The notes below the pieces were generated by a model. That model did no database searches and was not told the origin of the DNA. It was given only the letters and a program-made list of their open reading frames with translations. Shown piece by piece: positions 24,639-28,136 of a stretch of 48,147 nt of DNA. The position numbers were made by a program, and so were the translations under genes. This stretch comes from Gallionellaceae bacterium. Its GTDB lineage: Bacteria; Pseudomonadota; Gammaproteobacteria; Burkholderiales; Gallionellaceae. The stretch covers positions 1 through 48,147 of the forward strand of contig SCUU01000047.1 in NCBI GenBank assembly GCA_004297065.1, given 5' to 3'. Each line of letters begins with the position of its first letter. Within the stretch, counting starts at the first letter, position 1.

Positions 24639-25868
24639 TTGCGCGTCTTGATTGTCAGTTTATATTTCTGGCCGGAAGGTTTTCGTATCAACGAAATATG
24701 TAATTCCTTACAGGAAAAAGGTATTGCGTTTGAAGTGTTGACGGGCAAGCCGAATTATCCGCGCGGGGATGTGTTTCCCGGTTACCGCGCATGGGGATGC
24801 CAGAAAGAGGTTCATCATGGTTACGGCATCAATCGTGTTCCGCTTTTTGCGCGGGGGCGCGGCGGTTGGCGGTTGGCGCTCAATTATTTTTCTTTCGTCA
24901 TCTCGGGATTGCTGTTCGCTCCTTGGATGCTTCGCAACAAAAAGTTCGATGTCATTTTTATCTATGCCCCTTCCCCTGTACTTCAAGCCATTCCGGCTAT
25001 TTTCCTTGGCTGGCTAAAAAAATGTCCCGTCGTATTGTGGGTGCAAGATTTATGGCCTGAGAGTCTGTCGGCAACGGGGCATGTGCATAACCACGCTGTG
25101 CTCAAACTGGTTGAGCGGATGGTGCGCTTTATCTATAGGCATAGCGATTTGCTTTTGGTGCCATCGCGGGCTTTTGAAAAACCGATTCGCGCGCTGGTGA
25201 CTGATACTCCAATCAAGTATTACCCGAACTCGGTGGATGATACGTTTGCGGTGCCGTCCACCGGGGATACTCCCCCAATTGATGGGTTAGGCGAAGGATT
25301 TTCAGTCATGTTCGCCGGAAATATCGGTGCGGCTCAAGCCGTGAGCGTGATCGTTGAAGCTGCGTCATTACTAAAAGAATATCCGCACATCCATTTTGTT
25401 ATATTGGGGGATGGCAGCGCGCGGGAATGGATGATGAAAGAGGTGCAATTGCGCGGGTTAACGAACGTTCATTTGCCCGGAAGGTTTCCTGTGGAGACGA
25501 TGCCGGGTTTTATGCAGAAGGCGTCGGCTTTGTTGGTGACCTTGGCAGATCGACCGATTTTCGCGGCGACCGTGCCCAACAAAATACAGGCATATATGGC
25601 GGCAGGACGACCGATCATTGCTTGTTTGAACGGCGAAGGTGCGCGGTTGGTCGTAGAGGCCAAGGCGGGGTTGGCTACTCCCGCAGAAGATCCGAGAGCT
25701 TTGGCTGAGGCGGTCTTGCAGCTATATATGCAGTCATCGGATGAGCGCGCAAGCATGGGTGACAATGGCCGCCGGTATTATCAAGAGCACTTTGATCATG
25801 GCCGTCTGATAGACCAGTTGATTGAACATTTACATGGCGTGGCGCAAACGAAAAAGGTTTCCAGATGA
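24639..25868 (+). CDS. Glycosyltransferase family 4 protein, WbuB-like (putative L-FucNAc transferase)
   Basis: Likely transfers N-acetyl-L-fucosamine made by fnlABC. The 409-residue GT-B protein opens VLIVSLYFWPEGFRINEI, has VLTGKPNYPRGDVFPGY, VVLWVQDLWPESLSATG (a WbuB/WcfI hallmark) and the donor domain VMFAGNIGAAQAVSVIVEAA, FVILGDGSAREWM, FPVETMPGFMQKASALLVTL, with NKIQAYMAAGRPIIA. The start is a TTG with AAGG about 10 bases upstream; no ATG gives the conserved N-terminus. Order fnlA-B-C-wbuB is the same as in enterobacterial L-FucNAc O-antigen loci, which supports the inferred substrate. Its stop overlaps the next start by 4 bases. Confidence 0.86.
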   Translation: MRVLIVSLYFWPEGFRINEICNSLQEKGIAFEVLTGKPNYPRGDVFPGYRAWGCQKEVHHGYGINRVPLFARGRGGWRLALNYFSFVISGLLFAPWMLRNKKFDVIFIYAPSPVLQAIPAIFLGWLKKCPVVLWVQDLWPESLSATGHVHNHAVLKLVERMVRFIYRHSDLLLVPSRAFEKPIRALVTDTPIKYYPNSVDDTFAVPSTGDTPPIDGLGEGFSVMFAGNIGAAQAVSVIVEAASLLKEYPHIHFVILGDGSAREWMMKEVQLRGLTNVHLPGRFPVETMPGFMQKASALLVTLADRPIFAATVPNKIQAYMAAGRPIIACLNGEGARLVVEAKAGLATPAEDPRALAEAVLQLYMQSSDERASMGDNGRRYYQEHFDHGRLIDQLIEHLHGVAQTKKVSR

Positions 25869-26818
25869 AAATATTGGTGACCGGGGCAAGTGGTTTTGTC
25901 GGACGCGTACTTTGCGCGGAGTTGGTAAAGCGAGGGCAGGCAGTGCGTGCCGTATCTCGCAATTCTGCAAACCTAACGGGTTGTGAGGCAATCAAAATAT
26001 CTGGCATTGACGCGGAGACGGATTGGACGGGCACCCTGCAAGGGATAGAGGTCGTCATTCACCTCGCCGCGCGCGTGCATGTCATGCGCGACGAAGCCCC
26101 CGACCCCTTAAGCGAATTCCGCCGCACCAACACGGCGGGTACGGAGCATCTGGCGCGTTGTGCGGTCGCTGCGGGCGTGCGGCGCCTAGTGTATGTCAGC
26201 TCGATCAAGGTGAACGGCGCAGCGACGCATGCGGGCAGCAAGTTCACCGAGACGGATGCCCCCGTAGCGCAGGATCCCTACGGCATTTCCAAATGGGAAG
26301 CCGAGCAGGCTTTGCGGCGCGTGGCACAGGAAACCGGTTTGGAAGTGGTCATCGTGCGCCCGCCGTTAGTTTATGGTGCCGGCGTGAAAGGCAATTTTGC
26401 GCAAATGCTGCGCGTGTTAGCCAAAGGCATTCCGCTGCCCCTGGCTTCGGTGCGCAATCTGCGCAGTCTGGTTTATGTCGAAAATCTGGCCGATGCCTTG
26501 ATCGCTTGCATCGGGCATCCCGCTGCCGCCGGGCAGACTTATCTGGTCGGCGACGGCGAGGATATTTCCACACCAGATTTGCTGCGGCACTTGGGCGCGG
26601 CGCTGGCGCATCCGGCGCATTTGTTTCCCTGCCCGCCGGCGCTGTTGCAACTGGCCGGGCGCTTGACCGGCAAAGCGGATCAGGTCGAACGTCTGCTGGG
26701 TTCGTTGCAGGTCGATAGTGGTAAAATCCGCCGCGAACTTAACTGGATCCCGCCGTGTACCGTGCAGCAAGGGCTGCAAGCGACTGCCGCGTGGTATCGA
26801 ACTACTAAGGGCTCGTAA
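25865..26818 (+). CDS. NAD-dependent epimerase/reductase, WbpV-like
   Basis: Short-chain dehydrogenase of sugar-nucleotide metabolism. The 317-residue protein has ILVTGASGFVGRVLCAEL, VIHLAARVHVMRDEAPDPLSEFRRTN (the A-RVHVM block is typical of WbpV/RmlD-like 4-reductases and their relatives), YVSSIKVNG, and catalytic Tyr-139/Lys-143 in DPYGISKWEAEQAL. In P. aeruginosa O6, WbpV with WbpM makes UDP-D-QuiNAc and WbpL transfers it; here a WbpL-like gene and a WbpM remnant follow, which favours the same pathway. GalE-like 4-epimerase is the alternative. The stop codon lies inside the left arm of the 350-bp inverted element. Confidence 0.82.
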   Translation: MKILVTGASGFVGRVLCAELVKRGQAVRAVSRNSANLTGCEAIKISGIDAETDWTGTLQGIEVVIHLAARVHVMRDEAPDPLSEFRRTNTAGTEHLARCAVAAGVRRLVYVSSIKVNGAATHAGSKFTETDAPVAQDPYGISKWEAEQALRRVAQETGLEVVIVRPPLVYGAGVKGNFAQMLRVLAKGIPLPLASVRNLRSLVYVENLADALIACIGHPAAAGQTYLVGDGEDISTPDLLRHLGAALAHPAHLFPCPPALLQLAGRLTGKADQVERLLGSLQVDSGKIRRELNWIPPCTVQQGLQATAAWYRTTKGS

Positions 26819-27155
26819 ATGAATAACATGGGCTTACGCTGGGGTCGCTTTGGGCGCAGGCCAAGGCGCGAGACGCGCGGTTGTGTCATTCACAACAAGC
26901 GGCTCGCAACACCGGGATGCGCCCAAAGCGACCCCAGCCCGGAGGGTTGCAGCATATTCGGGCGATTGCGGCAGCCCTCTCCCAAACCCTCCCCCGGAGG
27001 GGGAGGAGACGATCGCCCCTTCTCCCTCTGGGAGAAGGTTGGGTTGAGGGTTGGCAAAGCTTGCGAATGGAACAACCATTCGCTGCGCTTTGCGCCTTGC
27101 ACTCATCCCGAATACGTTGCAACGTAAGCCCATGTTATTCATTTACGAGCCCTTA
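26806..27155. repeat. 350-bp nested inverted-repeat element with 33-bp perfect ends
   Basis: The ends (26806-26838 and 27123-27155) are perfect 33-bp inverted copies beginning TAAGGGCTCG. Inside are further palindromes: 26839-26858 with 26918-26937 (20 bp, perfect), which encloses GCGAG/CTCGC and GTTGTG/CACAAC; C- and G-rich hairpins around 26988-27035; and a stem around 27053-27096 built on GCGAATGG/CCATTCGC. No transposase or clear target duplication is present. The left arm contains the stop codon of the WbpV-like gene and the right arm ends 3 bp before the WbpL-like ATG, so the folded RNA would pair the two gene ends. It could be a non-autonomous mobile element, a structured regulator, or both. 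Confidence 0.85.
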
Positions 27156-27158
27156 TCT

Positions 27159-28136
27159 ATGAGCCATTACTCCCCCATCGTCGCGGCACTGGTCACCATG
27201 TTGTTGACCACGATTATTCTCTTCAGCAAATTCGGCAAAGAGATACAGGACATTTCCAACGAACGTTCCCTGCATGCGACGCCGGTGCCGCGTATCGGGG
27301 GCGTGGGCATGATGGCCGGTTTGCTGTCCGGCTGGGCGTTGATGCTCACTTCGCTGGCATGGTGGCTGGTGCTGCCGCTGATCGGACTGTTCGCGGTCTC
27401 GCTGCTCGATGATATTCAGGGCTTGCCGGTGCGCAAGCGTTTGCTGGCGCACACCGTGGCGGCGGCGATCATGGTCGGCGGCGCCGGTTTGCCAACGCAA
27501 CACGGCGTCCTGATCGCACTTGCGGCACTGTTGCTCGTGATATGGATGACCAATCTCTACAACTTTATGGACGGCTCGGACGGCTTGGCGGGCGGCATGG
27601 CACTGTTCGGTTTCAGCATGTATGGCGTCGCGGCGCTGATGGCGCACGACGACATGCAGGCCATGCTGAATTTCACCATCGGCGCGGCAGCGTTGGGGTT
27701 CCTCTACCATAACTTTTATCCGGCCAAAGTATTTATGGGCGATGCGGGCTCCATTCCGCTGGGCTTCCTGGCCGCAGGTATGGGGTTATGGGGCTGGCAA
27801 CAGGGCTACTGGGCGGTATGGTTCCCGCTGCTGGTATTTTCCCCGTTCATCGCCGATGCCAGCGCCACGCTGGCAAAGCGCGCCTTGCGCGGTGCAAAAA
27901 TCACCGAGGCACATCGCGAGCATTATTATCAACGCCTGATACAAATGGGCTGGGGGCATCGCAATGTGGCGCTGCTCGAATATGCCCTGATGCTGGCGGC
28001 GGGCGTGTCGGCGCTGGTATCCGTGCGCGTGGCCTTCCCCGTGCTGACACTCCTTGTTTGGTGCGGTATCTATGCGCTGCTGATGCTGGCAGTCGATATC
28101 GCGTGGAAAAGAACGGGGCAAAAGCAGCATGTTTAA
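27159..28136 (+). CDS. Undecaprenyl-phosphate sugar-1-phosphate transferase (WecA/WbpL-like)
   Basis: Starts lipid-linked glycan assembly by moving a HexNAc-1-phosphate (in WbpL, QuiNAc/FucNAc/GlcNAc) from UDP to undecaprenyl phosphate. The 325-residue integral membrane protein has about 10-11 hydrophobic segments and the MraY/WecA acids: LLDDIQGLPVRKRL near 83, NLYNFMDGSDGLAGG near 130-145, KVFMGDAGSIPLGF near 190, and the cytoplasmic HREHYYQRLIQMGWGH loop (HXXH-like). The ATG at 27159 gives the first membrane segment at once; an upstream in-frame ATG at 27132 lies within the repeat arm. No good ribosome-binding site is visible because the repeat arm occupies that position. Confidence 0.88.
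   Translation: MSHYSPIVAALVTMLLTTIILFSKFGKEIQDISNERSLHATPVPRIGGVGMMAGLLSGWALMLTSLAWWLVLPLIGLFAVSLLDDIQGLPVRKRLLAHTVAAAIMVGGAGLPTQHGVLIALAALLLVIWMTNLYNFMDGSDGLAGGMALFGFSMYGVAALMAHDDMQAMLNFTIGAAALGFLYHNFYPAKVFMGDAGSIPLGFLAAGMGLWGWQQGYWAVWFPLLVFSPFIADASATLAKRALRGAKITEAHREHYYQRLIQMGWGHRNVALLEYALMLAAGVSALVSVRVAFPVLTLLVWCGIYALLMLAVDIAWKRTGQKQHV

Follow-up and report, generated by a model that had tools for sequence, protein, structure and literature searches.

Between two sugar-polymer genes of a Gallionellaceae bacterium lies a long palindromic stretch, and the question it raises is whether this is a mobile element that landed there or a structure kept there for the expression of the downstream gene. 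The window analysed here is the whole of contig SCUU01000047.1 (48,147 nt). Its first-pass annotation described a 350-bp element of nested inverted repeats joining the stop codon of a WbpV-like gene to the start of a WbpL-like gene, and offered two guesses, control of translation or a non-autonomous transposon without a gene. The second guess has been borne out by other copies, by 3-bp duplications at about half of them and by empty sites, and we consider it highly probable that the feature is a complete copy of a non-autonomous transposon (MITE) whose family occurs in some members of one order. The unit is short, free of a transposase gene, bounded by terminal repeats, dispersed in further copies and missing from empty sites; a target duplication is found in the family (23 of 42 listed copies) but not in the window's own TAA/TTA flanks.

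Anatomy of the element and the junction it entered

The symmetry that had drawn attention to this stretch is real. Its outer arms (26806-26841 and 27120-27155) are 36 nt long and 97% complementary, the outermost 33 nt being perfect as claimed, and the inner repeat, also reported as perfect, is 100% complementary over 21 nt. The boundaries and the reading of the parts need correction. By comparison with the other copies, the element proper runs from GGG to CCC (Table 1), and the TAA and TTA included in the 350 bp are target bases. The stop codon of the WbpV-like gene does fall in the left end, but it is a TAA supplied by the repeat itself and not the outermost TAA, which is out of frame. The nested structure stands as well, and about 78 bp of the stretch are a copy of a different, widespread repeat. 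This stretch corresponds to 78 gap columns in the other 24 rows of our copy alignment, is matched on its own at many places in this genus, in the window's own genome and in relatives, and lies within hairpin B, which is why the window copy exceeds the 266-bp unit. A nested-repeat-like stretch was also seen, without the MITE, at the wbpV/wbpL junction of another genome (G048, L090), where the gap is 102 nt.

Table 1. Coordinates of the putative MITE copy, its parts and its flanking genes in the window
Feature	Position	Strand	Remarks
WbpV-like gene, NAD-dependent epimerase/dehydratase family	25865..26818	+	PF01370, E 9.4e-38
Left target bases TAA	26806..26808	+	Out of frame for wbpV
MITE copy, complete, 344 bp	26809..27152	.	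266-bp core plus ~78-bp nested repeat
Left terminal inverted repeat	26809..26838	+
Actual in-frame stop of the WbpV-like gene	26816..26818	+	TAA supplied by the repeat
Inner hairpin A	26838..26938		Arms 26838-26858 / 26918-26938; apex hairpin 26881-26895
Inner hairpin B	26946..27123		Arms 26946-26962 / 27107-27123; apex hairpin 27063-27083
Nested C/T-rich palindromic repeat, ~78 bp, separate family	26973..27051		Ends good to ~2 nt
Right terminal inverted repeat	27123..27152	-
Right target bases TTA	27153..27155	+
WbpL-like gene, glycosyl transferase family 4	27159..28136	+	PF00953, E 9.7e-31

The names WbpV and WbpL are those of the first-pass annotation; NCBIfam did not confirm them, and no NCBIfam model stood above its cut-off for the WbpV-like protein among the 25 matches listed. 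The wbpV reading frame ends inside the left terminal repeat, which in the window copy holds two ATGs and, over some 20 nt, a stop codon in each of the three frames, and wbpL begins 340 nt downstream, its ATG lying 3 nt past the right target bases. This ATG is the native one and has been retained, as judged from its alignment with the starts of relatives. The right terminal repeat holds another ATG (27132-27134) in frame with it. No open reading frame fully within the element is longer than 102 aa, a length reached once on each strand.

As had been proposed, the junction was compared in relatives. The MITE is absent from this junction at all 29 wbpL loci compared outside the own genome, of which 19 have a WbpV match upstream. 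In 10 of these 19 the two genes overlap by 4 nt as ATGA (L088, L089, L091, L092, L093, L098, L100, L101, L105 and L107, the start in L098 having been corrected by eye), and in the remaining nine they are separated by 70-1095 nt. Two genomes of the same genus, G002 (L089) and G003 (L101), are among the ten; a third, G001, has no WbpV match upstream of wbpL. Removing the element and one 3-bp target copy from the window junction leaves a 4-nt overlap, and nine of the ten can each be matched to the joined flanks by a single BLAST alignment that spans the site, at 67-76% identity. Aligned by eye, L089 has CTA where the window has its left TAA. Judged from these alignments, the ATGA junctions of G002 and G003 represent the empty site, and the insertion is best read as having separated two sugar-polymer genes whose counterparts in close relatives overlap. 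The insertion had also been said to remove the ribosome-binding site of the second gene; this is doubtful, as the ten relatives with the ATGA overlap show no Shine-Dalgarno sequence directly upstream of wbpL that is clear by eye either.

A dispersed family and its candidate relatives

Searching the genome for further copies of the end, another check that had been suggested, was productive. A BLAST search of the own genome with the 350-bp query gave 49 matches. Ten of those outside the window reach E < 1e-30 at 85-99% identity, and most of the others cover the nested repeat only or the repeat's own arms. The terminal ends of the MITE are GGGCTCGTWAATGAATAA-like, and at up to three mismatches the own genome has seven of them: both ends of the window copy, and one on each of five other contigs (C39, C47, C155, C167 and C226), close to a contig end in every case. 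The element probably explains some of the contig breaks in this assembly. On three of these contigs (C167, C226 and C47) some copies are broken after TTCACAACA by another G/C-rich repeat, an indication that elements nest within elements.

Beyond this genome, a scan of species-genome contigs for the exact end GGGCTCGYAAATGAATAACATG gave 11 stretches, whose records carry the titles Gallionella sp., Gallionellaceae, Sulfuricellaceae and Proteobacteria; Gallionella, Gallionellaceae and Sulfuricellaceae are betaproteobacteria. Of 300 genomes of the order, 12, the own genome among them, have ends at up to three mismatches (backward control 0). This pattern misses diverged copies, since one genome (G038) scored zero and yet has one. 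The element was seen under seven family labels, all of one order. In a single-contig genome (G213), eight ends make up four 266-bp copies and nothing longer. A class-wide BLAST search of 369 genomes with one 266-bp copy at E 1e-20 matched the own genome alone, and a 266-bp copy gave no match among plasmids. Two exact matches of an 18-letter end pattern in viral contigs were judged to be chance, since both lie inside open reading frames without a second end.

After removal of repeated loci, at least 42 copies have both ends. The set consists of loci fetched by their ends, with part of the ends listed for three genomes, so that the terminal repeats of the other copies are a selection criterion. 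Among the 42 listed copies, 24 measure 265-268 bp, seven 46-53 bp, one 94 bp, five 159-160 bp, three 182-214 bp, one 287 bp and the window copy 344 bp. With minor variations, the unit begins GGGCTCG and ends CGAGCCC. Identical 3-bp flanks surround 23 of the 42 (TAA or TTA in 22, ATA in one); the flanks differ in the other 19, including the window copy, in 15 by one base. TAA or TTA stands on at least one side of 41. These flank counts include both L067 and L069, which share one insertion site in two genomes and carry a 182-bp and a 268-bp form; the 182-bp form probably arose by internal deletion after insertion. Conservation is uniform across the element, at about 0.90-0.93 per part, which counts against a freely drifting interior and to that extent against a plain gene-less transposon.

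A sister subfamily in the own genome has the same interior and other ends, GAGCTTGTCCGCAAATAATTC, with 12 ends at up to three mismatches on contigs C201, C200, C131, C22, C85, C255 and others. Its longer copies also hold the nested repeat, as if ends had been exchanged.

The unit would be moved into TAA/TTA sites by a transposase acting in trans, perhaps of the IS5 kind. This link comes from the 3-bp target length and from the ends of the sister subfamily, GAGCTTGTCC, which we take to resemble IS5-type ends. IS5-family elements of the IS1031 type have 3-bp TNA targets, to which the TAA/TTA flanks of the present family, identical on both sides in 22 of the copies, are alike. PF01609 was found at 12 places in the own genome and at 33 places in 10 of 11 element-bearing genomes (30 of them taken as loci), and PF13340 at eight places in four of the 11. 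At the 50 of these 53 places that became loci, scanned for MITE ends and for flanked inverted pairs, we found no autonomous element with MITE ends. At one locus (L210), a stretch weakly resembling the end lies beside a PF01609 gene, where a gene that we named maf-like stops; a second end was not found, and the match, at four mismatches, may be due to chance. At another (L231), the PF13340 gene adjoins an ordinary 266-bp copy and lies outside it. A PF13340 gene in G038 (L230, 1414-2272) sits in an element of its own with TAA on both sides, as in the family, and 18-bp perfect ends, GAAGCTGTTTTAAAAAAT, unlike those of the MITE. None of the transposase loci examined has IS5-family ends matching the MITE, and the family is not classed as IS5-derived.

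Elements of this general kind are familiar from other bacteria. The Chunjie MITE of Geobacter uraniireducens (235 bp) is of similar size and, like the family described here, variable in length, and its host belongs to another phylum than ours. One Chunjie copy sits in a phosphate uptake operon: a review (PMC10969869) speaks of a disrupted operon copy, and the title of the original report speaks of an undisturbed operon structure. Correia/NEMIS elements of Neisseria are likewise gene-adjacent MITEs with terminal repeats and target duplication, and according to the same review RNase III reportedly cleaves their transcripts at these repeats (PMC10969869). They differ in having, according to a published table, 24-bp terminal repeats and TA termini (PMC2229807), a separation made by description and not by sequence. 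ERIC/IRU elements of enterobacteria (127 bp) share with the family the gene-less palindromic mobile unit and the target duplication; in Yersinia they are described as co-transcribed with their neighbors, and they have a 127-bp consensus and TA termini, with terminal repeats given as 7 bp in the table (PMC2229807). Set against these descriptions only, the family differs in length (265-268 bp), terminal repeats (about 30 bp), 3-bp TAA/TTA flanks and hosts; neither the length nor the flanks are those of ERIC. The element is of an ordinary kind, comparable to ERIC, Correia and Chunjie, and its family is apparently new: we recognized no prior description in the open-licence literature searched, where no paper on a Gallionella miniature inverted-repeat was found.

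Insertion sites and stop codons

The window copy lies at the end of a gene, and we asked how common this is in the family. Genes were called with an in-house, non-standard caller based on simple codon usage after removal of the element, and non-coding TAA/TTA sites of the same loci served as a rough null. L067 and L069 represent one insertion, and L067 was left out, which gives 41 copies. Of these, 23 have their target no more than 10 nt away from a called stop, compared with 194 of 1058 null sites (Fisher p 1.5e-7), and in 15 the target shares bases with the stop codon, compared with 125 of 1058 (p 6e-5). For 12 of the 41, the nearest called stop is over 50 nt away. Co-directional gene pairs as such are not enriched (32/38 versus 669/891, p 0.25); those with a gap of at most 30 nt account for 17 of the 32, compared with 88 of 669. 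One copy (L149), whose neighbors are co-directional with the element in place and divergent in the joined sequence, is a failure of the caller and was kept in the counts. GG stands directly after the downstream target copy at 10 of 31 co-directional sites (both L067 and L069 included) and after 469 of 11506 TAA/TTA sites in general, a difference to be expected if stop codons that run into a Shine-Dalgarno sequence are frequent targets. Insertions called inside a gene number two of 42 in one count and four of 41 in the other (L150, L162, L165 and L178).

Copies of the family often sit near stop codons between genes, a clear habit that target choice and survival could produce alike. Insertions at stop codons would be tolerated because the repeat brings its own stops and the next gene stays intact. 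The junctions that contain copies include bamB/der, secD/secF and pstC/pstA, as named from their translations.

RNA structure and what the element may do at this junction

The further hairpins mentioned in the first-pass annotation are also predicted. The RNA from 26806 to 27161 folds at -234 kcal/mol, whereas 100 dinucleotide shuffles of it average -130.6 (sd 5.9), which gives z = -17.6. For covariation the window copy was aligned with the 24 copies of 265-268 bp, and RNAalifold predicted 101 pairs for these 25. Both-sided changes occur in 32 of the 101 pairs (shuffle mean 17.4, with 0 of 500 shuffles reaching 32), and only 3-7 pairs have them when partners are slid by one to three columns; the aligned copies are related, a fact that the shuffles ignore and that the slid control keeps while favoring a sequence-derived structure. 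The both-sided changes fall in 11 of 29 pairs of the terminal stem, nine of 22 of the hairpin A stem (helix 2, formed by the hairpin A arms), five of 17 of the hairpin B stem and two of eight at the B apex (helices 6 and 8), and five more lie in smaller helices. Pairing cells reach 97.8%, compared with 92.2% in shuffles; further pair types, the weakest measure, number 63 against 56.3, a value reached by two of 500 shuffles. An earlier count from a one-strand prediction (A-first G.U 70 versus A.C 38; transcribed 43 versus 42) was set aside, as its A-first bias looks like an artefact of prediction. In pairs predicted on both strands the transcribed strand has 21 G.U and 12 A.C (p 0.16); in the union of pairs it has 86 and 79 (p 0.64), and the A-first bias is reversed (79 versus 129).

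We regard all of the remaining readings as unlikely. The foremost of them supposes that the terminal stem hides the region before wbpL until a ribosome at the wbpV stop melts it, so that the element would substitute a structural coupling for the lost ATGA overlap. The geometry is suitable, with the wbpV stop 10 nt within the stem and the wbpL ATG 4 nt past its foot, and in the model the 20 nt before the ATG have a mean unpaired probability of 0.15 in the free RNA and 0.15 with a ribosome further upstream, rising to 0.57 once a 31-nt ribosome footprint is placed on the wbpV stop, close to the 0.54 of the empty site in G002. However, this prediction comes from a single fold model, in which the ATG itself is already largely free of pairing when no ribosome is present (0.85, 0.74 and 0.40) and the stretch of 17 nt that begins with the ATG becomes no more open when one is (0.47 to 0.40; 0.60 in G002). 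Moreover, no Shine-Dalgarno sequence is evident before the ATG, the G.U excess in pairs predicted on both strands is non-significant, and many copies sit at sites lacking the stop/start geometry. If such coupling did occur, it would show how a tightly coupled operon can take in a transposon and not be destroyed by it.

Marginally less probable in our estimate is a generalization to the whole family, in which the element would be a portable joint that lands on stop/Shine-Dalgarno sites in operons, brings its own stops and leaves the start of the next gene in place. Its terminal stem would expose the stretch before that start only in the wake of a ribosome that has completed the upstream gene, and translational coupling would thereby outlast the insertion. 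The unpaired state of the ATG without a ribosome weakens this reading as it does the former. We give still less credence to a cis-acting RNA retained under selection at this locus, as a riboregulator or a processing site for the initiating transferase. Its fold is very stable and covaries strongly over copies, but the first-pass annotation had looked to covariation in relatives, and what is seen is covariation across copies, not that of the wbpV/wbpL locus; as it spans different insertion sites, it reflects the element. The structure belongs to a mobile family at every landing site, Rfam has nothing at gathering score for 26700-27300 (10 sub-threshold matches), and the 29 other wbpL loci do without the element at the junction, ten of them with ATGA. 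Least credible is a REP/BIME-like palindrome mobilized by a Y1 (RAYT) transposase, which would suit the seven of 42 listed copies that at 46-53 bp are scarcely more than hairpins from end to end, but REPs are not known to have the identical 3-bp flanks, the fixed unit (here 266 bp) and the long terminal repeats of this family.

We therefore return to the transposon copy as the preferred reading. The element would have landed in the wbpV/wbpL junction, where its TAA became the stop of wbpV and its insertion, as a 340-nt spacer, would break the old ATGA coupling. Any effect on the host is most likely incidental, that of an intercistronic hairpin which may offer a processing site to RNase III or RNase E; such cutting by RNases has been reported for Correia and ERIC elements.

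A second filled/empty pair was found at bamB/der, filled in G068 and empty in G284, the empty site being one base longer than expected from a clean 3-bp duplication. Natural pairs of this kind would allow the effect of an intercistronic palindrome on downstream expression to be measured. In the same two genomes, a lone left end lies at a hisS/yfgM-like junction, so named from translation (L145, 2497-2519; L146, 2484-2506). There the TAA of the repeat closes the first frame and its ATGAATAACATG opens the next, so that, as read from the sequence, both codons seem to come from the repeat.
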